Positions 3,801 to 59,400 of a DNA stretch of 64,000 nt are shown piece by piece. Origin of the DNA: Henricia sp. BOLD:AAB3569 (lineage: Eukaryota > Echinodermata > Asteroidea > Spinulosida > Echinasteridae); assembly GCA_037783545.1 (NCBI GenBank), contig JBBELK010000003.1:2232001-2296000 (forward strand). The letters run 5' to 3'. The position numbers and the translations under genes are program-made. Below the pieces are notes generated by a model that saw only the letters and a program-made list of their open reading frames with translations, searched no databases and had not been told where the DNA came from. Each line of letters starts with the position of its first letter. The stretch's first letter is position 1.

Positions 3801-6800
3801 AAGCCTTATGTGGAGCCACAAGTTTCATTGTAGAATGATTTAAAAAAAATTGTAATATGCATGGAATACCTTTGTCTGGTCTCAAAATAAAAGAAATGAG
3901 TTTAAGTTGTTCTGAAGAGATAGCTTAGGCCCAAAAAGGGTTACAAATAACTTGTGTTACATTGTAGGCCGTTCCGGTTACGAGCGTATATTGGAAATTT
4001 GTAGACAGGGTTTTTAGAAAGGCATGTTGTCACACTATTTGTAACCCTTTTTGGGCCTAAGTTATCTCTTCAGACCAACTGAAACTTATTTCTTTTATTT
4101 TGAGGCCAGACAAATGTATTTTCTGGAAAAAATGGTCTGCGTTGCCAAAATGCCCCCTTTACCGTTAAAAGACTTACATGGCTACGTTATTGTTATTTTT
4201 CATCAGCTTTGGAACACAGCCTCCAAGAATGGCCTTCGCACAGGTTGCTATTACTGGGTGGGATCCGATGTCGATATTCAAGGTGAGACAAACAGAAATT
4301 GTACTTTTAACCTTGTTTGTATAGATTTATGTGTTTATTCATTTATTCCATAATTTTATTTTCCAAATTGTTATTTTTTTTCAGATATGAGACCAGACTA
4401 CTTTTTCTTGTATGATGGGTAAGCATTTTCGTTTGTTATTTGTAGTTTATTAAAAAGTAGTGTTCCAGGTACATGTACTAAATGGACAATTTTGTAAATT
4501 TAAGAATTTGAACCTTTTGAAATAAGGGAAACAAAATAATTTGTTATTATTATTATTATTATTTCTTTCTGGTATTCATACCAAGGATTCCTCAAAAGTG
4601 CACATTGCACTGTCACTCGCAAGCGTGAGGAAACCCACGAAAAATTATAAATGGCCAAAGACATCGCGGAATCCCCCTGCTCTTTACGAAAGAATGCTCT
4701 GGGATCTTCAAAGTGCGTTACCTAACACACTGGACCAACGGCTTTACATTTCCTCCGAAGGATGGAGCAAGTGTGGTTGAGTGTCTTGCTCAAGGGCACA
4801 GGTACCGCAGCCGGGGGAGGTTCGAACCCGCAACACTAAGTGTTTACTTATGATTGCAAGTCAATGACCCAAACCACTCGGCCACTGTACCCCACATGAT
4901 TGCATGATATTGACATGCAATTTGGCCTTTTTTTTCAATAATATCTAGAATGTGCACACTGTGGTTTCACAGCCAAACGTGATGACAGATTAGAAATAGA
5001 ATTTTCATAAATCATTGATTTTTTTGGTATTATTTCTTGACAGTAAGATCTCTCCGGAACAGAAGATTGACACTATTCGTGGATGGCTGCAGCTTCCAAC
5101 AGGCAAAAGGTTCACTCATGTTTTTTCTTCATATATCCGTAACATGTATAGACCATTCTCATAACCATGGAAGCCTTCCCTGTATGTCCGCCATAGCTTG
5201 GACGCGGTCAGTGCATGAACTACATGCGTTATGTGATGATGCTCATTGTGTCGTCACTTCGAACAATTAGTGCGTTTGTTGTAATGGTGAATTCACTCTA
5301 AGCTTTTTCGCGCGTGAGTAATTGTGACGCGCGTCGCTTTGAGAAGAAGTGATGATACACTGAAAATCACTGAATTATGAAGACACTTTTCGTCCAACAT
5401 GTTTAAGCTAATTCTGTGGTTTTTGGTGCGTTGTTTCACCCCAAATTCCTTTCACAGAATTAGCTTGGATGTAAAGTGTTTTTATAAATCAGTGATTTTC
5501 AGTGCATCGTTTCACTCAAAATTCCTTTCACACCGCTTTTTCTCAAAGCGACGCGCGTGGCAATCAGTGTGGATTTGTGTGTGCGAAGAGCGCGTTGCGC
5601 GCATCATGGAGGCGAGCTGTTTGATTAACAGCAACGCAAAACACACAGTCCATGCAATGGAAAAAGCTGTGTCCCAGCTATGGCGGACGTGTACAGGAAA
5701 GGCGTCTTGAAAATGGTCTATTCAGTTATTGAATTACCAGTGCACGTGGAGGTCGTTATTTGTTGCATTAGGCCCATACCTCTTTATTATGCCAATGGCA
5801 TCTTTGACCCCATTCACTTGTGGGAAATTGCTTCGTTTAATGAAGATTGGGAGCTGTTTCGTCTCAAAGTTGTCAACATTTTAATAAACAAACGTCATTT
5901 GTTCGCGTTGCACATTTGGTCAGTCAAACTAATAAGTTGTTTGTTTTTGTTCCGCCAGACCCGATTTTATCACGCTGTATTTTGACGAGCCTGACCATGA
6001 AGCGCATAAATTCGGACCAGATTCACCTGAGGTATTGATTTTGTCAAAATCTTTACTGTTTTGGATAAATAATGTAGTATTCTGACACATTTTTAGGTGA
6101 TGTCTAACTTGAAATTTTTTTTCTTCTAATTCCTTCCATCTTTATCATTTTTATATATTAATAAAACAGACAAATGACAAGCTGAAAGTCGTGGACAAGT
6201 ACATTGCGGATTTGATGGACGCATTACTAGCCGTCAAGATGCATCAATGCGTTAACATCGTAATACTGGCAGACCACGGCATGGCTAACCGGAGTTGTGA
6301 AGCAAACATTCTACTGGGAGATGTAAGCTAAAGAAAGATTTCTGCGAGATTTTTGTCAGTTTATTTTGTGTTACTGCACTCTTGAGCGCGTAGTACACAT
6401 GCGCAATCCATTCATTCGATGCACGACGTGCGCGAACACGTGTGCTTGGGTGCACCCAGCGTGCCCGTGCATCAGATTGGGGCTCTTTGCTGCACAGTAT
6501 CAGAAATGCACGGTGTCTGCAAAAGCTTCATTTTATATAATAATAGCTAACATCGTTTCGCCTCATTTTGTGAAAAGTAATAAAAAAGTAAATCTCTGTT
6601 TAGTTACGTTGCAAAAAGGTTTCCATAAATGCGACACAACTGAAATAAAGCATTATATTTCTTTCATTGCTTGTTTACTGGCGTGTGATTTTTAATATAA
6701 ATATATTTATGCAAAAAACTGCAGAAGTGAATACGTCATTTTTTGTTAGTTGCCTAGGCAATGGCTCCACACTAAAAATCACTGAATCGTGTCCCTGTGC

Positions 6801-19713: not shown

Positions 19714-21612
19714 CTATCTAACCACACATGCCATACACAGACTCGAAGGGCTTATGCAGCCATCATGACAAAATGCTCCACATCCCTTACATATGACCAT
19801 CGCACCGAGACGACACGAGCATTTTCCCGGTGAAGCGTTCAAACTCTCCGCACTGTCGCGTCCATTTGCAGTCATATCAACTCGTTGAAGCACAATGCCA
19901 ACAGGTGGTCGACCTGAAAACGCGTTGGTTTTTGGGTGCATGTCTGTGCTCGTCACAAACTTAATAGAATCGGAACGTACAACTTGTACGACTGATGTTG
20001 AATGGGATACGGGATTCGAAGCCATAGTGATTGGTTTCTGTCCTAAGATGGTAGTTTGTGAATTTGCTGCCTTGAAGCTGGTTGTTGCGGGACTCCTTCC
20101 GTTCAAAAGGGCTAAACTGGTTGGTTTTTTATCTGACAAAGCATTACTATTCAGCGATTCTTCAGATGCCTTCTGCATGCTCAGAAGATTCTTAATAGAG
20201 TTTGGTCTTTGGGGTGTCGAGGACGTAGACCCTGGTACAACGATGGTCGAAGTCTGTGGTAGCGATTCTACAACCACCTTTGAAGTTTGCGACATTGTGA
20301 CCGGTTTAGCAAGGCTTGTGGTCTTGCTTTTCATTTGTTGGATGGCCGGTGCGGAAGTGGGAACTAACGTCATCATATTGGGCTGGGTGACGTAAACAAC
20401 GCTGACGCCACTTCCTGGTTGGGTTTTGATGAAAAATGGAGGGATGGTTTGCAGGACCTTTTGATTCGTTGTGTCGATTTGGACCACGTGGTTTGGTAGC
20501 TTAGACTTTGGCGCGTCTCTCGACGAGGTCGAAGACACGACACTACTTGACGCGGTAGCTTTCAAACCAGTCACTGATTTGACGATGTTCCACTGCGGAG
20601 TGCGGGACCGACTGAGAATCGTCGGGGTGTGCGTGGCCGCTTTGGACTGCCCATGCACTTCGGCCTGAGCTGCCGATCTAGCCATTAACTTAGCCGATGT
20701 CTGGGCCTTGATTTGTGCCAGTGTGCGAGTTTGTCCGTGCGCCTGGGCTCGAGCTTGCGTTTGTGCCTTAATCTGAGCCAACGTTTTAGTGTGATGATGC
20801 CCCTGCTTCGCAACCATTACTGGTGATTTGACGCTAAACAGTATCTTAGGCTTGACATCGGTTTGAACCGTAGATGGCGCCATAACCTGGTTGAGGATAC
20901 TGCTCCTGTACGAACCCGTCAAAACTGCCACGGTAGACTGCGTGGAACTCGAATGACCTTGTGAAGACACCACAACGTTACCGCTCTCCAAACGTATTTG
21001 CTTTTTACTCTGTTCACCTTTCTCTTCAAGCGGCCTCTTGAGCGAAACCGTCTCCCTGTTTTCCGAAGATAGCGGAACCACCTTCGAAGACGAAGTGACT
21101 GTACTCGTAGCTGCCTGATGGCGCTGGCTTTCCATAGCCATGCTGGAAAGAAGCGAACTGCAAGAAAAATTGGTCTGGGATGTCTGCAAACTTGCCGCCT
21201 GCTTGGAATTTACATCCGAGGTAATTGAACGACTGTCTGCATTATTGCTTGCCTGTTCTCGTTTCAAAACACTCTTAGCTTCAGCCAAACGATACTTCTG
21301 CTCCTTATCGAGTGCTCGCTGCAACCTCCTAGTTTCCCGAGCAGACATACTCCTATGATGCCTCGGTGACGCCTCATAACCCAACTTATGGTAATGATGA
21401 TGGTGGTTACCGGACGTTGCAGATCGCGTGTTGCGATACACGGTACTAACGGAGCTAACGTTAATGTTTCTTCTCTGCGCTGAACTTCTAGTGTGCATGG
21501 CGGGGCTTTTTCTCTCCTCTGGCGGGATGACACCCATGCTTGCAAAGGATTCTGGGATTTCCGGAGCAGTGGCGAGGACAGACTGACCCCAGGACGGCTC
21601 AAAATGCTTGGC
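19714..21612 (-). CDS. ASXL: ASXL last exon: low-complexity region and PHD finger
   Basis: A single 1.9-kb exon. It starts [18 protein letters not shown], runs through Ser/Thr/Gln/Ala-rich sequence, and ends in the ASXL-type PHD, whose cysteines follow CSC, ICKGC, FCHDGC and LCMAC. A local duplication is visible: TLAQIKAQT occurs twice in a QAxAQAHGQ-rich stretch (plus-strand 20680-20800). Antisense ORFs over this exon are composition shadows. Confidence 0.95.
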
Positions 21613-41800: not shown

Positions 41801-44800
41801 AGGTACCCCAGCCGGGTGTCGAACCCGCAACCCCAAGTTTTGACCCGAGTATTGTGAGTCAGTGACCTAAACCACTCGGCCACGGTACCCCACAAGAAGA
41901 TGGTTTGTCATCTCTCAAAATAAATTGGAGGATTTGCATTTGAGTAAGATTTTTCTGGGGCCGATTTCACAAAGCGTCTTAGGAAGGGTCACTCTTCTTA
42001 TCTTGGAACGTTGGTATGGGAATTAGGATGCATTGAACTAGTCTTAACTTTTGTGAAATCGACCCCTGATTAAATAGTTCATTTAAACTTTAGGACATTA
42101 CGGACATGTAAACTCGTCAAAGAAAGTTCGGAAAGTCAAGTTTGACTGACGATTTCTCTCTTGTTGCAAAATAATTGTCCTTGAATTTTATATCATTGGA
42201 AAGCCCTGTTATTCCTCTTTACGATGATGTGTCATTTGTTATGATTAAGCAATTGGGGGATGTGCACCACAGCTAAATACGGGGGCGGGTGTAAAGTGAA
42301 ATGTCACAAAATGCATTGCTATTGTCAAAAAGTGCATTGACACATTCCCATCCTCCAAGCAAAAGGGGAATGCACTGCATGACAATAGCAGTGAATTTTG
42401 TGACATTTCACTTTCCACCCACCCCTGTATTCCGCTATACTGCACATCCCCCCCAATTGATTAATCATAACAAATGACACATCACTGTAAAGAGGAATAA
42501 CAGGACTTTCCAATGATACCAAATTCAAGGGAAATGATTTAGTAACCAGAGAGAAATCGTCAGTCAAATCTGACTTTCCAAACTTTTTTTTAGAAGTTTA
42601 TATACAGGCTTTAAAATTAAAAGTATATCTGCTCAATCTTTCCACCACACATACAATCGCAGCGTCTAAAGACAGCTAACTGTAGGAGTAGTCATGTATT
42701 AAAAGTCATTCTGATATTGGACGCATAATGACAACATTTTATATTTACCCTCGATCACAGGATGGATCTGGAAGAGATCACGATTCAGTTAACCACGGGT
42801 CAGAAACAGCAGGATGATCTGAAATCATCGTTGACCCAAGTCGGTCAGCGAATCGAAGATGGTGATACCCATCATGTACAGTACACTAACGAGAGAAGAG
42901 AAATGCTGGAAAAACTGTGGGTAAGACCCAAGAAAATATGTGACTGTCCAACACAAACAGGCTGTAAAGTTGGTGAACTTTATTTTGTGCTACAGAACAA
43001 AATACTGTGATGTTAGGGCCGTTTCAAACGTCGTGCTTATGCCGTGTCAAATCAAATTAAATTTGGCGCGACGGTAGCACGGCGTTAGCACGGCAGTGGT
43101 TTTAAACGTCGAACTTAATTGCAAACTCCCAGTCTAACTTAAATACATCCCATGGCGGATGAGTCGTATGGCTGTTACGCACGTGCGTTTTCCATTCTGT
43201 CCATTGTAAGTCGCCATATTTATTATTTTGATGCGCTTGTTTGTTGGTTATTCCTTTACTTACATACGCGCTGCGACCATGCGCATTCTTAGTTGTGAAC
43301 ACAGTTGTGGCCCAACTTCGAACAGGTATTAAATTCGACACGGCAGAAGCACGACGTTTGAAACCATGCTGTGCTTGTGCCGCATTAAATTAAGTTAGCA
43401 CGGCAGACCCTGTCAAGCTAATTTCTTCTGCCGTGCCGAATTCAATTTGCTGAGCCAAATGGTTTCAAACGTCGTGCTTGTGCCGTGTCGAATTTAACAA
43501 AAGTCAAGTTGAATTTAATTCGACACGGCACAAGCACAACGTTTGACAACGGGCCTTTACTGACCGTAATGAATAGCCGCCATCTTGTGGGGCACCTTTT
43601 GTTACTTAAACTGGTCAACAATGTACATGTAAGCACAAAATGTGCAACCATGCATGTCCTCAAGGAACAAAGAAACTGCCCTACAAGACGGCAGCTATTC
43701 GATACGGTCTACAATAAGGTGTGAACAAAAACTTCTGTGAAATGGTGATTGTAGCCAATATTGGGAACATAGTGATTACTGTATGGGTAATTCCCAAAAT
43801 TAGTGGTCCAAAATTGTTGGTGTCCCAGTTACGTATGACACTTCCTGGTTCAAAAATCACCACTTATGACCACAAATTCTCAGTTATGGACTGTAGCCTG
43901 TGATTATAGGGGGCAGCATCATTTTCTTCAATATTTTTTTCTTCTGATTCCTGAAAAATATTCAAAACAAAAGACCATAAAGGCTTATAATTTGTTCCAT
44001 GGTATTGAATAGGAGTTTGGTGTCCCAGGTTACCTACGCCAATGAAAATTGGCTGTAGAATGAGTTTGCATTAACCTTGGTGCCATATTTACACACAAAC
44101 ATTAAATTTGAGTGGCATTTGTTCAAATAAAAATAATTATTTTCTACTGGGAAACCACTTTCAATCATTAAAAACACTTTTGGACCCCTAATTTTGGGAA
44201 TTACCCATAGTTGTTGATGTAGTTTGGTACCAGAAGTCGTTATCACCCATTAGTGTAGAGCAGTTGCAAGTGAGATGCAAAAAATCAGTCAGGACTTGAT
44301 ATACATGTATCATCACTTTTTCAGAATGATCTCAAGGAAAGATTGAAGGAGAACAAGGAACTCGCTCGTCGGTATCGCTTGACGCAACATGAACACCTCA
44401 AGTTGAAGGAAGCATTCTTGGAAGGCTTCGAGGGTCGCATCAACCTGGAAGCTAGTCTTAAAGATCACAAACAGGTTAGTAAAACAGACATTTGGACAGA
44501 TTGAGGGGACCTTAGAATGGACTAGAGGGTCGTATTAACATGGAAACAAGTCACAAAGATCACAAACGGGTTAGGAAAATGGACATTAAGACAGATTGAG
44601 GGGACCTTAGAATGGACTAGAGGGTCGTATTATTACATGGAAACTAGTCACAAAGACGACAAACAGGTTAAGAAAATTGGCATTGAGACGGATTGAGGGG
44701 ACCATAGAATGGACTAGAGGGTCATAATAACGTGGAAACAAGTCATAAAGAGGTTAGGAAAATGGGCATTGAGACAGATTGAGGGGACCGTAGAATGGAC

Positions 44801-49488: not shown

Positions 49489-50430
49489 TTAGGCTAGCTA
49501 TACCGGATAGAAAGTGCAGGTATTAAAGTAAATTCTTTCCGTAATTAATATGTGAGTTTAAAAAATTTTAAATTACATTTTTTATGTGCAGATTCTTTCA
49601 CTGACAAATGGCAAAAAGATTCTTATGGAGTTTGTATTTTTCAAATGTACATGTATGCAAATCATAGTTTTTGCTCTCCTACATTTTAAAACTGGATTAG
49701 GCCTAGGCGTAGGCCTATGTTGCTTTCCCTGTTGCATAAGATTTTATGTAGTTTGTATTTCTGGTAAGAATTTGAAAAGACCTTGTGCACAAAACATGAA
49801 ACTGGCTGAAATTTTTCCTCAAATCTTAAATTTTTTTTACACCTAAATTTGGGGTTTTTTATCAAATCTGTACTTCCCAATGCTTGATGAGTCATTTTTA
49901 TGAAAAAGGTATTTTTTCCTGTATAATATACATTGAACAAAGATTTAAAGGAAATTATCTCCTGGAATCACATTTTCTCTTTCAAAAATTGCATTCAGTT
50001 AGTGCACAACAAGTATTCTCGCGTGTGCGCAGCGCCCTCTGTTATCGCGCTTTAATACACACGGACTGCTCACGCCATAATTTTGTGCATTACTTTATGC
50101 AGTATTTTATCATTTATTTCACTAAGAAATGCAACATTTCCGACAGAAGTACAAGTGGGTAGTATTAAAATTGGATGATTTGTTGATTCCAGGAGGTAAT
50201 TTCATTCAAATCTTTGTTCAATGTATACTGAAAAAATACCATGAAAACATTTCTGATCAACTTCTCAACTTAGTCTTACCGTATTTCCTTACCGTACATT
50301 GAAAAAATACTTTGAATTTTGTTCTTTTGCAGAGCGTCTTTGAAGCTGGCGAGGATCTTGGATAGATGTTTTCGTCATCAATGGAGATTGTGATCCTTAG
50401 TGCACCGGAAGCAACAAGTCCTTGGCTAAG

Positions 50431-53400
50431 ATGAAACGGTACGTTGAAAATTAAATGAAATTTCTTAAAGGCCTATTTTAATAAACTCCTCAAAAAAAGT
50501 TCGGAAAGTCAAGTTTGACTGACGATTTTTCTCTTGTTTATACTAAATCATTTCCCTTGAATTTGGTATCATTGGAAAGCCCTGTTATTCCTCTTGACAG
50601 TGATTTGTCATTTGTTATGATTAATCAATTGGGGGATGTGCAGTATAGCGGAATACAGGGGTGGGTGGAAAGTGAAATGTCACAAAATTCACTGCTATTG
50701 TCATGCAGTGCATTCCCCTTTTGCTTGGAGGATGGGAATGTGTCAATGCACTTTTTGATAATACATGTAGCAATGCATTTTGTGACATTTCACTTTACAC
50801 CCGCCCCTGTATTCAGCTGTGCTGCACATTCCCCAATTGCTTAATCATGACAAATGACACATCATCGTAAAGAGGAATAACAGGGCTTTCCAATGATATA
50901 AAATTCAAGGAAAATCTTTTTGCAACAAGAGAGAAATTGCCAGTCAAACTTGACTTCCCGAACTTTTTTTGAGGAGTTTATATCATTTGCAGTTAATATT
51001 TGTGCAAAACCATGAAACAGTGCTCAGAGAGAAAAAATGTTGCTAAACTAGGCAGCTACATAGAAAAATGAGTGCGCACACTCATATAAAAAAAAATTAA
51101 AACCACTCTCAGTTGGGTCATTCCGTGTCAAAACAGCCAATATCCAGATATCTCGTGCAGTATATGACACCTCTCAGATTTTGCTGAAACTTTTTCAAAA
51201 ATACTTTAGGTTACCATACGAAGGAATCCCGAGTTTTAGCTCAATATCTTTAACGGTTTTTGCAGGACAACCTTTTGAAATTCGAGTGTCCGGTCCTTTT
51301 TGACAAATGTGAATTGCTCAATGCAGTTCGTAGCATCTTTGAAGCCCCCATAACTTATTTTCTAATGGTAATAAGGAGCTAAAATTTGGTTTGCTTGTAG
51401 ACTCCTGCCCAGATTGGAAGATTCTGCAGTCTGAATCAATAAGTTGTATTATTTAAGGGAGAGGTGGACCCCCAAAAATCCTAATTTCTGTAGGGGCGCT
51501 GACTAATTTTCAAATTTTGGAGGTCCCTATATATATAGGTCTCAGTTCATTTACTTTTTCTAGTTGGAATGTGGTTTTTCTTGGTATTTGGGAGCTTTTC
51601 CAACACAAGAATGGTTTTCAGGGCTATAGTGCCACTGCTGGGGAAATTGTGGGGGTCTGAAAACCCCGTCATATCAAAATTACCCTTCTGACCCCCTAAA
51701 TTCAGACTCCCAGATGACCATGTGGGCACTTGATGACGATGATGAGACTTTCACCAGACAAACATACACATTAATTCATTCATAAAATAAAATAAAAGGT
51801 TTGATTATCAGCCTCCGTCATTATAAACATAATTTTTGAAAATATGCATTCTCTGATCCTTGTTGTACAAGTATGTAATTCAACAGAAATTTCAAAGTAG
51901 AGAAACTAGGTCAAGGAGGATTAGGTGACAATCGGCCTTTTGCGTGTTTCCCATGAATAGCGTCTGTTGTATTTATGTATTTCCTTTCATAAATGCACAT
52001 ACAGCTAGACCTGACTAAATTTGTTTTGCTATGTGGTGCATGTGGCACAGGTATGAAGTACATGTTCAAAGTTTTATTACTTTTGAATAAATGTTCAAGT
52101 AGCTAAATGCATACAACTGCTCCCCCTCACCCCTTCCTCTTTCTTCCACCACCAGCATCCCCCCTCCCCCCCCCCCCCCTCCCCTCCCCCCTCCCCTCCC
52201 CTCCCTCCACATCCCTCTTCCCGGACTACCCTTCCTAAGAGGTTGTATTGATACTTTTTAAGGACAGATTACATGATTGGAAAACTTTTAAAAACAGGAA
52301 CAGCATTACATACGGTAACTAAAGAATGCACACATAGTATCCACTTGACGAGACTAATTTGTTGTTGCTATGTGGTGCACGCAGCAGATGTGAAGTACAG
52401 AATCAATACTGTGTTTACCGTAGGAGAGAATAGCATAATAATCACATCAAAATCAGCGCACATGGGAGCAAAACGTACATGTTTAGCACCAATGGGTGGG
52501 GATTTGTTCATCTAAATTTTGCCCTAGGGTTTAATAGGCACTTGTTAAGTTTCTCACTAAAAGGGGGTGGGGGTGCTGCACAGTTGTATGACAAGACATT
52601 TGGGTCATTCCGTGTCAATTCAACGAGCTTTTGGACCTGACCATCACGGATTGAAATGAAATTTGGTGTGTTGATTGGACTCCTTGAGAAACCCCGAGAA
52701 CTGAAATTATATGTAATTCAGTAAATTAATTTTTGAGATACGGGTCAACGAACTTTGGACTAATTAGCATAACCTGCTATGCTTAGACAATTATATCTCT
52801 AAAAGTAATGGACCTACAGAGATAAACTTTACATCATTTTTAAGCTCTTGAAATGGCCTTTATTTTATAATATTACATCAAAATTGTATCTCGTACCACA
52901 AAAAAGTTATGTGATTTTATAACCTTTGACCTTGATTTGCAAAAATGCGTATTTGTCAAAATGCGTAATTTTTTTTTATTTGTTAGCTTAAGATGTAAGG
53001 AACATTTCCAGAAAGATTTGGGATGGGCACTCTAACAGTTTTTGAGTTACGATAATTTAAACATTAAATAACATGTAAATATCATGTAAATACCATGTAA
53101 ATAACATGTAACTGTGTACATGCACTGTAAGAGTGCCCATCCCAAATCTTTCTGGAAATGTTCCTTACATCTTTAGCTAACAAATAAAAAAAAATTACGC
53201 ATTTTTGCAAATCAAGGTCAAAGGTTATAAATTCACATAACTTTTTTATGGTACGAGATACAATTTTGATGTGATTTTATAAAATGAAGGCCATTTTAAG
53301 AGCTTTAAAATGATGTAAAGTTTATCTCTGTAGGTCCATTACTTCTAGAGATATAATTGTCCAAACATAGCAGGTTATGCTAATTAGTCCAAAGTTCGTT

Positions 53401-56400
53401 GACCCGTATCTCAAAAATTAATTGACCGAATTACATAAAATTTAAGTTCAAGGGGTTTCTCAAGGAGTCCAATCAGCACACCAAATTTCATTTCAATCCG
53501 TGATGGTCAGGTCCAAAAGCTCGTTGAATTGACACGGAATGACCCCATACTGTGTTTACCGTAGGAGAGAATAGCATAATAATAACATCAAAATCAGCGC
53601 ACATGGGAGCAAAACGTACATGTTTAGCACCAATGGGTGGGGATCTAAATTTTGCCCTAGGGTTTAATAGGCACTTGTTAAGTTTCTCATTAAAAAAAGG
53701 CCCAATATATAATTTACATTATTTATTTACCAAAAATTTTGCTTCACGAATTGACAAATGCCACATGATTTTTTCCCATGTAAAATCGTACCTTCGTGGG
53801 AGAAATTGCCAACTGAAGGTGTTTTTTTTTTTTTTTAAATCATCTGCTGATTTGTTTTACCATTCATTTAAACACTAAAACTATGCATGGATTTTTAATG
53901 TTTTTCTAAAATATGACTGCATCTATGTGGATGAAATTTCTGCAAGGCAGTTTATCAACCATATGTTTAAAGTTATGTATATGTAATGCTGTTTTCTGTT
54001 TTTAAGGTTTTTTCTCAATCATGTAATATGTCTTTAAAAAGTATAAATCCCACCTCTTAGGTATATTAGTCTGGGAAGGGGGAGGGGGGTGGGGGGGGGG
54101 GGGGGGGAGGGGGAGGAGAGTAAGGGTGAAGAGGGGGCGAGGGGGAGTGCTGCACAGTTTTATTCATTTAATAAGCTACTGACAAGACATTTGTTCAAAA
54201 GTAACAAAAGTACATGTACTTCATACCTGCCACGTGCACCACATAGCAACAAACATTTAGTCTGGTCTGTATTTTTAAGGAAATACATCATTACACAGAC
54301 ACTATTCATAGGAAACGCGCAAAAGGCCGATTGTCGCCTAATCCTACTTGACCTAGTTTCTATACTTTTCTGTTGAATTACATTACATATAAAGGTCCGA
54401 GAATGCATATTTTCAAAAATTATGTTTTAATGAAGGAGGCTGATCATCAAACTTTTTATTTCATTTTATGAATAAATTAATGTGTATGTTTGTCTAGTGA
54501 AAGTCTCTTTTATCGTCATCAAATGCCCACATGGTCATCTGAGGGTATGTTCAGACGGAGGGCTACTTTTTTTAGCTCCAATCCAATTAAAGGACTCAGT
54601 GGGGGTTCGCTGGAGCTAAAGTGAGTTAGTCCAAAATGCCCTCCCGTTCAAACGATGATGATAACTCCGGAGCTACAGAATGTGGTCAAATTTGATAGCA
54701 TATTAACATTGGCCAGATGCCACAATGCGAGGTCAGTTGTGTTCAGTCAGTAAATAATGGTGGAGCTAAGTCATAAAAAGAAACCCCGCTGTGCTGAAAG
54801 TGGGGCTAGCCCCACAAATTTGTGGGGCTACATTTGGGGAGAGCTAGCTCCGGAGCTAGCCCCAGAGGTGGAGCTAGTTGCGTTGTGGAGCTAGCTAGCT
54901 CCGGAGCTAGCTCCAGAGATAGCCCCTCGTCTGAACGACCTCTGAGAGTCTAGATTTGGGGGTCAGAAGGGGTAATTTTGATCTGACGTGGTTTTCAGAC
55001 CCCCACAGTTTTATCACCATTGGCACTATAGCGCTGAAAACCATTTTGGTGGTGGGTCATTCCGTGTCAATTCAACGAGCTTTTGGACCTGACCATCACG
55101 GATTGAAATGAAATTTGGTGTGCTGATTGGACTCCTTGAGAAACCCCGAGAACTGAAATTATATGTAATTTGGTAAATTAATTTTTGAGATACGGGTCAA
55201 CGAACTTTGGACTAATTAGCATAACCTGCTATGCTTAGACAATTATATCTCTAAAAGTAATGGACCTACAGAGATAAACTTTACATCATTTTAAAGCTCT
55301 TGAAATGGCCTTCATTTTATAAAATAACATCAAAATTGTATCTCGTACCACAAAAAAGTTATGTGATTTTATAACCTTTGACCTTGATTTGCAAAAATGC
55401 GTAATTTTTGTTTAAATTTGTTAGCTTAAGATGTTACAAGGAACATTTCCAGAAAGATTTGGGATGGGCACTCTTACAGTTTTTGAGTTACGATAATTTA
55501 AACATTAAATAACATGTAAATGCCATGTAAATGCCATGTAAATACCATGTAAATACCATGTAAATACCATGTAAATAACATGTAACTGTGTATGTACATG
55601 TGTTGTACATGGTATTTACATGGCATTTACATGTTATTTAGTGTTGAAATTATCGTAACTCAGAAACTGTAAGAGTGCCCATCCTAAATCTTTCTGGAAA
55701 TGTTTCTTACATCTTTAGCTAACAAATTTTAAAAAATTACGCATTTTGACAAATACGCATTTTTGCAAATCAAGGTCAAAGGTTATAAATTCACATAACT
55801 TTTTTGTGGTACGAGATACAATTTTGATGTAATATTATAAAATAAAGGCCATTTCAAGAGCTTTAAAATGATGAAAAGTTTATCTCTGTAGGTCCATTAC
55901 TTTTAGAGATATAATTGTCTAAGCATAGCAGGTTATGCTAATTAGTCCAAAGTTCGTTGATCCGCATCTCAAAAATTAATTGACCGAATTACATAAAATT
56001 TCAGTTCTCGGGGTTTCTCAAGGAGTCCAATCAACACACCAAATTTCATTTCAATCCGTGATGGTCAGGTCCAAAAGCTCGTTGAATTGACACGGAATGA
56101 CCCTGGTGGAAAAGCTCCCAAATACCAAGAAAAACCACATTCCAACCAGAAAAAGTAGTTGCACTCAGACCTAGGGACCTTCAAAATTTGATGCCTTGGA
56201 AAACTACCCAGATTCCACGTAGTACTTATATACAATGTTTCTTCAATTTTATTGAAATATACCACTTGTTATCTATACAACTAATTCCAAGATCATATAT
56301 TTTCCACAACTTACATGATTTTATTAATTTTAATCAAAACCAAGCATTTTTATATATTAACATAATCCCGCCATGAATATGGCCTCTGATGCCGGCATGG

Positions 56401-59400
56401 CGTTAAACCACAAACTCACTCACTCACTCACTCAAAATTTGAAAATTAGGATTTTTGGGGGTCCACCTCTCGTTCTAATAATACAACTTGATGATTCAGA
56501 CTAGCGAATCTTGCAATCCGGGCAGGAGTCTACAAGCAAACCAAATTTTAGCTCCCTAGCACTACTAGAAAATAAGTTATGGGGCTTCAAAGATGCTACG
56601 AACTGCATTGAGCAATTCACATTTGTCAAAAAGGGCCTGACACTCGAATTTCAAAAGTTGTCCTGCAAAAACTGTTAAAGATATCGAGCTAAAACTTTGG
56701 ATTCCTTCGTTTGGTAACCTAATGTATTTTTTAAAAAAGTTTCAGCAAAATCTGAGAGGTGTCATATACATGGGTGGCTGAGTTGACACGGAATGACCAA
56801 GTTGTTAATTTCAAACAAAAAGATGTCATTTTGAACAGCAAAGGTTCATGTGGTGCTTGTTACCATTGATGCAACACTTTCAGTCAGGTTTTTCTTGTCG
56901 GCTCATGAGGTCAAATTTTTCATCACTGCAAATGATAAAATGGGTCATTAAATCAGTACAGAGTTTGTGCAGTTGATGTCACACGAACAATGCCCAACAT
57001 ATTTGTTTTAGTTAAAATCACAGGCTCGTCAGCAATGCGCGAGTGCCAAATTTGTGTCACGAAATCGCAGCTCCATGCCTTTGCTATGGAGCTGTGTATT
57101 TTGTGGCACGAATTTGGCGCGCGCGCATTGCTGACGAGCCTGTGCCTTTAACATGTCTGCTTGCTTGTCAATAACAATTTTGCAAATTGGTTTAGGTAAA
57201 CTGAAGTTGGCTAGAATCGATTCCAATCTGGGAATTACAATTTATACCACTATTTTTGTTTTCTTTTTTTTTGGAGTAATTTATTCCCAAAGCACATCCT
57301 GAATCCCAAAGAGTTATAGAGTAGTGGTGCCCCTTTGGCAAATGGCCACTACTCTTTAGCAATCAGCCACTACCGTACCCTTTCACATTCAGAGCTTTCA
57401 ACAAATATTCTTAGAGAATATTGCTTTCTGAGCTCTCAGAGATTAAAATTGATACAAAAAGACAATGAAACTCATAAATGTACAATAAACGAATTGAAAA
57501 CTCTCCAGAAATCCACTGTTTGTATCATGGCAGTATCACAGTATTATATGGCGAAAGTGAACAGACAACGTTTGTCATCTCAAATTATTTTCGAATATTT
57601 TACAAATGATTCAAAACAAATGATTCAAAAACACTAACAATTTATGCAGAAACTGCACATTGAAGAAAAAGCTGAAGAAAAAAGTGATTGCATGGTTATT
57701 TCTTTGTTAAATTTTGCCAGAAAAAATGGAATTGAATCTGAATGGAATCAAGATTCCTAGAAAAATCACAATTCCAGAAATTTTGGATCAGCTAAAGTCG
57801 AAATTGATGATTTTTGAACAATTGGTTGGTGTTGTTCCATTTTGAATTCATGATAGACATATGTGGATGTTGATTATTAAGAAATAGTTACAAACTTTGT
57901 CTACAAATTCCAAAATGAAATGCAAAGTTCTTGATGCAGAGTTCTTGATAAATTTCGTGAAATCAACCCAAAAATATTTTTGGTGATTTGGTGAGTAAGA
58001 AAGGAGGACATTTGTTTTGTGGGAGTTTATATTATGCAAATTAGTTCACTGCCCTATTTGCATATAAATCTTTCAATGAATATTTAAATACTGTTCTCAT
58101 GCTCATCAAAGGTCATAAGGGGACATCACGTTGCTCCCAACTAACCCAATTCAGCAATGTATAGGTGGCACCCATGGTTAGCAGACTGTGCTATTCCATT
58201 CCACTCTGTGAAATACGATTATGTGCCATAATCTTCTCATTGACTTCATCTACTAATGAGTCATGAGCGTGCTGGATTGTCCGAATATGTCATCTTCAGA
58301 AATTATTGGCGCACCAAGATTTGTATAAAGCAGACAAATTTTGCTTAATACACAATTTGTCTGCTTTATAAAAATGTATTAATAGAAAATGCACATCAAA
58401 CAGTGTTTTTAGCCCTTATAATCCCCCGGTTGAAACCGTCAGAAAAAAACACCAACCATCCAAAAAATCAAAAAATAAACGAATCTCCACCGCATTCTAC
58501 ATGTACGTGGCTCCCGCCAACCATGTTGTTTTCCTTCCTCCATGCACCAACATAACACCAACCATAAAAAAAACAAACAAAAAACAAAAAACCCAAGCGA
58601 AAACACTGATCGGAAGTATTTCAGTAGGCCTATATCGTTTATTTAATGACAGAAAACAGTCGTTGATGCACCCGTGACAGTGCTTGTACGTGTGCCGTGG
58701 TTGCGCGTGGTTGTTTTTTCCAACTTTTTACATTCACACCATCTCAAGCAGTGATCATAAGTACCAGAAGAAGGCACTAGAATGATCTCTGGGAAGTCTA
58801 GAATGCAGGAAGTGCATTTTCGGCCAGGTTGAAAGTCTGTTTGGTTGTTTTATGGGGTAGTTTCTGGAACGCATCATTTGCAAAAAGTGCCTGAATCGTT
58901 AAGCGAAAAGAAAAAATCAAAAATCGTCAAAAAACAGAGCCAACGACTCAGTTACTGGGTCTAAGTTGGTATACTCCCTCAAGTTTTCCCTATGGACCCA
59001 ATTCTTCTCTCGGTGTTGCATGGTAGCGCAACTGGGCAAAGTAACGTACACAACATCTGGTATGGTGCCTGATGACCATTGAAATGAAACAACCAAACTT
59101 GCACTAAGGGCCTTATCGGGATTCGAACCCGAGACCTCTGATTCACATACCCAGTATACTTTATACTTGGTAACGGTAACGCACTTTAAAAATCCCAGAG
59201 CATTCTTTCTTGAAGAGCAAGGGGATTCCCCGGTGTCTCTGGCCATTTCTAATTCTTCATGGGTTTCCTCACGCTTGCGAGTGACAGTGCAATGGGCACT
59301 TTTGAGGAATCCTTGAATACCAGAAAGAAATATTAATAATAATAATAATAATCTCAAAAGTTCATTCTTGGTTTTTGTTGTTTTTTGCAGGACTGGTAGC

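Follow-up and report, generated by a model that had tools for sequence, protein, structure and literature searches.

Most foldback elements, though not all, are apparently members of Mutator according to the Tetris report, and Tetris itself was found without a helper, as foldbacks often are (PMC4079207). Galileo is placed in the P superfamily (PMC3573991). We describe here a foldback element from the genome of Henricia sp. (740.7 Mb in total), which lies at 51115..56799 on the + strand of a 64-kb window, the window being the whole stretch of DNA analyzed, bases 2232001-2296000 of contig C3 (JBBELK010000003.1). The element is very probably a DNA transposon of the cut-and-paste type: non-autonomous, with the long arms of a foldback, interrupted by insertions and mobilized in trans by a related group of transposases. 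Its structure is that of a foldback, a general kind already known; it is real and well explained. For the window the result is chiefly annotation, in that a nested transposon was recognized and no object of a new kind.

Structure of the outer element

The outer element, a member of what we call family 1, has an L-type end, GGGTCATTCCGTGTCAA, at 51115, and its R-type end carries the sequence TTGACACGGAATGACC up to 56798, with inverted arms between them. The span of 51115..56798 given in the initial annotation was correct on the left and one base short on the right: the terminus is at 56799, with A where C was expected, and counting this A in gives a perfect target-site duplication, AGTT, at 51111..51114 and 56800..56803. 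The left arm occupies 51115..52312 (+), with a C-run from 52159, and the right arm 53980..56799 (-), with the mirror G-run from 54073 and three insertions that break it. The ends framing long inverted arms and the two mirrored runs had thus been recognized properly in that annotation. Self-comparison of the window resolved the arms, which are imperfect and about 1.2 kb long, into four separate pairing blocks (each E < 1e-25): 51160-51487 with 56443-56769 (91.5% identity), 51510-51605 with 56104-56191 (84%), 51600-51714 with 54941-55055 (85%), and 51703-52312 with 53980-54549 (77% over 630 columns).

The absence of a transposase frame from the outer element, also reported initially, was borne out. 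The longest stop-to-stop frame, of 111 aa, is at chance level, being matched or exceeded in 54 of 200 shuffles; the open reading frames of 111 and 109 aa found no Pfam match at E ≤ 0.1; and the only tblastn match in the window to four related transposases (E 0.48) lies beyond the limits of the outer element. Long arms, the lack of a transposase gene and dispersed copies with target duplications are the features that it shares with the foldback class. The description as a mosaic, non-autonomous foldback stands, but that of a single 5.7-kb palindrome does not: the 5.7 kb consist of an element of about 2.86 kb, to which insertions and one local duplication have added about 2.8 kb. Two of the insertions, inner 1 and inner 2, are palindromes of a second family and end in the same 17-bp sequence as the outer element.

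Copies elsewhere in the genome and their target duplications

Genome-wide there are 614 occurrences of the exact 17-base end and none of the reversed pattern. Family-1 ends, counted as a 25-mer with at most two mismatches, number 599 (control 0), family-2 ends, of the type of the inner palindromes, 666 (reversed control 0), and the related end GGGTCATTCCRTGYCAAATC, which marks further related families, 353 (control 0), these three counts overlapping slightly. Far from being unusual, as first supposed, such elements are common in this genome. An absence of other copies with these ends, named initially as grounds for refutation, was not borne out. When facing neighbor ends among 100 exact family-1 places listed were paired by hand, 23 pairs less than 12 kb apart were obtained, 13 of them spaced 2.3-2.7 kb.

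Twenty-two loci were fetched as family-1 copies (L009-L028, L035, and L033 with L034 counted as one), seven of which (L010, L018, L020, L021, L023, L024 and L025) were left out of the duplication count because the second end was unreadable or the first end altered. Of the other 15 family-1 copies, in which both ends could be read, 13 are flanked by a perfect 4-bp duplication; in a test of duplication length on 14 of these, 12 matched at 4 bp and none at 5 bp or more. Perfect 4-bp duplications were likewise found for three of five family-2 copies (inner 2, L030 and L032). The duplicated targets are mostly AT-rich (e.g. TTAA, AATA, AAAA, TTCA, CATA and AGTT), though TGGT was found at inner 2 and ACCT at L030.

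Seven other copies were compared with themselves, using a filter that dropped full-length self-pairs and thereby left no arm reading for L018, L020 and the family-2 copies. Four of the seven (L015, L019, L027 and L028) have continuous arms of 1.09-1.18 kb within 2.7-2.8 kb, and in L012 the arms lie in three pieces. The four with continuous arms are complete copies of 2739, 2723, 2793 and 2771 bp, respectively. Separately, GTGTCAA ends that face the same way are found some 1.5 kb from one another (C79:103006/104557, C79:164927/166480 and C3:1795784/1797294), a spacing that suggests tandem or segmentally duplicated arms.

Asymmetry of the ends and divergence of the arms

All 16 family-1 copies analyzed for their ends, that of the window included, carry one L-type end (AACAGCCAATATCC or one base off) and one R-type end (CTCAGCCACCCATG or one base off), and the same L/R composition was found in 22 of the 23 hand-paired end pairs, the remaining pair (C129) being L/L. 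The two ends also differ in the position of a subterminal block, CTCTCAGATTTT..TGAAACTTT, found some 30-75 bp in. At the L end it starts 40 bases in for 13 of the 16 copies and 45 in for two, among them the window copy, with one not measurable; at the R end it starts 30 bases in for 12 of the 16, and 36 and 38 in for one each, with two not measurable. A 9-bp difference between ends was found in three other families (L036/L037; L038; L040/L042/L043), a figure that allows for errors of one and two bases in where L037 and L040 were cut by script. In family 2 the ends are symmetric, with the block at 36/36 in three copies. The block thus lies 9-10 bp further in at one end, about one helical turn, in four of five families, with a difference of 0 in the fifth; in the outer copy of the window the difference is 15. 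Because copies within a family share the asymmetry by descent, it is informative only through its recurrence between families.

Arms were compared across 12 copies, including that of the window; L035 was dropped for a substitution in its L-type motif, and L017, L020, L026 and C366 were not part of the set. Identity between the two arms of one copy averaged 91.0% (range 86.8-95.5%), and between copies it was 90.6% for L against R, 95.2% for L against L and 92.4% for R against R, so that the two arms of a copy resemble each other no more closely than an L and an R arm from different copies do, and less closely than two L arms or two R arms. In a tree of the arms all 12 R arms group together (support 0.986). 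The arms look old and not homogenized within copies. This bears on whether the palindrome has a function beyond that of mobile DNA, for instance by giving rise to long hairpin RNA in silencing. With arms of about 1.2 kb it would, judging by its anatomy, fold into a long hairpin if transcribed; yet the arms diverge freely, over the within-copy range just given, and the region 50000-58000 contains no Rfam match at gathering score. We regard such a function as very unlikely.

Coding relatives and their link to the foldbacks

The search for an autonomous partner with the same ends succeeded for related ends and failed for the exact ones: coding elements in the same genome have related ends (GGGTCATTCCATGTCAA), inverted repeats of 0.7 kb and an open frame that reaches 582 aa. 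L040, L042 and L043, which are 98.6-100% identical to one another over long stretches, have inverted repeats some 0.7 kb long that are 94.8-97.5% identical, and frames of 582, 418 and 454 aa, respectively. Two palindromes, L036 and L037, with the end GGGTCATTCCATGTCAAATC, carry the same piece of transposase-like coding sequence in both halves. A protein search with one transposase piece gave at least 60 genome matches, with open frames of up to 908 aa, and the ends of the gene-less families (>1000) outnumber these matches. The L040 protein is 45% identical to that of L044 (479 aa) and 25-27% identical to those of L039 (908 aa) and L041 (784 aa). In an alignment of these four proteins D242, D325 and D366 (L040 numbering) are invariant, among other invariant acidic residues, and from this pattern we infer that the protein of the coding relatives is a DDE/D enzyme. 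In viral contigs the terminal 17-mer had no match, and in a search there for relatives of the transposase 40 stretches fitted a peptide pattern, none of them a relative.

The foldbacks were linked to this group by comparing ends. Five end sequences, each 86-90 bases long, were taken from four elements (L036, both ends; L038, L040 and L044, one end each) and compared by BLAST with the 64-kb window. All 23 matches at E ≤ 0.01 fell on the six ends of the outer element, inner 1 and inner 2, against none with 200 dinucleotide-shuffled queries. The matches cover 64-85 columns at 66-75% identity, except for one of 27 columns at 89%. Each end of the half-coding L036 matched all six window ends, the left end of L040 five and the end of L044 four (both coding elements), and that of L038 two. 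The coding group found here, or a close relative of it, would then be the actual helper, as these related ends lead us to infer.

Several results weigh against this interpretation. The ends of L040 and L042 are degraded, and L043, whose ends are intact, sits between 166-bp direct repeats (1-166 / 4175-4340, 99.4% identity) and has no clean 4-bp duplication; by eye, L038 is the only one of the six both-ended coding or half-coding relatives (L036, L037, L038, L040, L042 and L043) with a perfect one. Two of the 15 family-1 copies and two of the five family-2 copies (inner 1 and L031) also lack a perfect 4-bp duplication. For the coding proteins neither Pfam nor NCBIfam yielded a match above the curated cut-off, and the PDB (Protein Data Bank) yielded none for the L040 protein (best E 0.72). 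No coding element was found whose subterminal sequence is exactly that of family 1 or family 2, and the helper is therefore known to the level of the group, by related ends only. The sole transposase relative that adjoins a family-1 end, L045, is broken and lies outside the element.

Four candidates for a coding partner were rejected: L045, as a transposase remnant outside the family-1 end; a 10.7-kb end pair on C366, which encloses a long terminal repeat (LTR) retroelement, recognized by eye through its reading frame; L035 on C104, which has no frame of more than 146 aa; and the integrase-like open reading frame in L026, which is outside the element. This last, at L026:3002-4111 (-), is a 370-aa integrase-core frame (Pfam rva_4, E 3.9e-69) near a family-1 copy.

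A classical Foldback/Mutator-type element, or a P-type one like Galileo, would share the gross anatomy seen here, with long arms, little unique center, no transposase and chimeric or rearranged copies (PMC4079207, PMC3573991). Against this stand the duplications of 4 bp (13 of 15 copies, and 0 of 14 at 5 bp or more), compared with the 7-10 bp that those texts give for Galileo and Tetris, and the coding relatives, without a Pfam match to Mutator or P transposases. Mutator and P are disfavored because of the duplication length, and we consider this assignment very unlikely.

Nested insertions

Without its inserts the window copy measures about 2856 bp; unbroken family-1 copies are about 2.3-2.8 kb long, and the window copy is longer because of four inserts. 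Inner 1 (944 bp, 52602..53545, +) lies between the two copies of a central 157-bp direct duplication (52406..52562 and 53547..53695, both +). The right arm contains a 397-bp inverted-repeat element with ends GGTATGTTCAGACGG... (54544..54940), which is unrelated to the foldback families and is flanked by the 6-bp duplication TCTGAG (54538-54543 / 54941-54946); inner 2 (1050 bp, 55054..56103, +), with the duplication TGGT (55050-55053 / 56104-56107); and a 240-bp insertion with an (ACTC)n tail (56192..56431, +), labeled by eye as like a short interspersed nuclear element (SINE), with the 11-bp duplication TCAAAATTTGA (56181-56191 / 56432-56442). Three of the four inserts, namely the 397-bp element, inner 2 and the SINE-like insertion, have an empty site in the left arm. 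All four are missing at the same place in each of the 14 other copies aligned with the window element, a set that includes short or rearranged copies (L011, L017 and L026). Inner 1 has no matching target duplication and is preceded by an apparent shortened copy of right-arm sequence, adjoining the 157-bp duplication; for these reasons it was apparently rearranged into its place next to that duplication.

An assembly artefact, in which a collapsed or inverted misjoin made the arms, could draw on the difficulty of assembling long palindromes and on inner 1, which adjoins a direct duplication without a target duplication of its own, but misassembly of the arms is unlikely because independent copies on other contigs have the same arms, 13 of 15 with perfect 4-bp duplications, and three insertions each have an empty site in the opposite arm, so that we give this explanation almost no weight.

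Proposed mechanism and significance

In the mechanism that we propose, a transposase encoded elsewhere in the genome would recognize the end of about 20 bp, GGGTCATTCC[AG]TGTCAA, and might also bind the subterminal block. The element would be excised and reinserted with a 4-bp stagger into a mostly AT-rich target, and the inner palindromes, probably mobilized by the same group of enzymes, would have jumped or been rearranged into the outer element. Foldback arms may originate when a coding element has one of its sides duplicated as an inverted repeat, an origin suggested by L036 and L037, both halves of which carry the same transposase coding piece.

In this genome copies that code and have 0.7-kb arms occur together with half-coding and with pure palindromes that have related ends, so that the steps from coding element to foldback can be ordered and tested. 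A broader proposal, which we put forward tentatively and hold to be rather doubtful, is that the GGGTCATTCC elements are a transposon group whose coding members are long-armed (0.7 kb) and encode a transposase without a match to any Pfam model, and in which coding copies have repeatedly collapsed into palindromes as one side was duplicated in inverted orientation, the distinct L and R end blocks being retained. If true, it would amount to an independent, datable route to foldbacks outside Mutator and P, with its stages preserved in one genome. Ends of the GGGTCATTCC type may also belong to Sola2.

Other features of the window

Just upstream of the outer element is a palindromic element at 50481-50981, with arms at 50481-50538/50924-50981 (93%) and 50545-50697/50768-50920 (88%), and at 57011-57152 is a short palindrome with 55-bp arms at 87%, 32 bp apart. 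An inverted-repeat element at 43782-44209 has ends TATGGGTAATTCCCAAAATTAG and 37-bp arms at 95%; its end resembles GGGTCATTCC, and several further sites in the window are within one base of that sequence. The open frame of 632 aa at 19717-21612 (-) ends in an Asx-type PHD domain (PF13922, E 1.2e-18) and is probably an exon of an ASXL-like host gene. A tRNA scan of the window gave no hits.

Comparison with known systems

Literature searches by end sequence and transposase motifs returned nothing on this transposon group among the matches listed. The 4-bp AT-rich duplications fit Sola2 as described (PMC3627910), but the element is not filed in Sola2. A large transposase, of 888 aa in Dictyostelium fasciculatum, is a further likeness, whereas the Dictyostelium elements have terminal repeats of 12-13 bp compared with arms of 0.7-1.2 kb here (PMC3627910).

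Galileo is similar in its long arms, in arm-only copies that were first taken for Foldback and in chimeric copies without matching duplications, and differs in its 7-bp duplications and P-type transposase (PMC3573991). Inversions have been brought about elsewhere by transposons with long arms of this kind, as in the case of Galileo (PMC3573991).

Tetris and the Drosophila FB elements are likewise long-armed and non-autonomous, and have ends in common with a shorter inverted-repeat element, with which they were inferred to share a helper (PMC4079207). Tetris differs in having duplications of 8-10 bp, against 4 bp here, tandem arm repeats of about 220 bp and a suggested place in Mutator (PMC4079207). 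A further difference is that the genome of the foldbacks described here also contains coding relatives.

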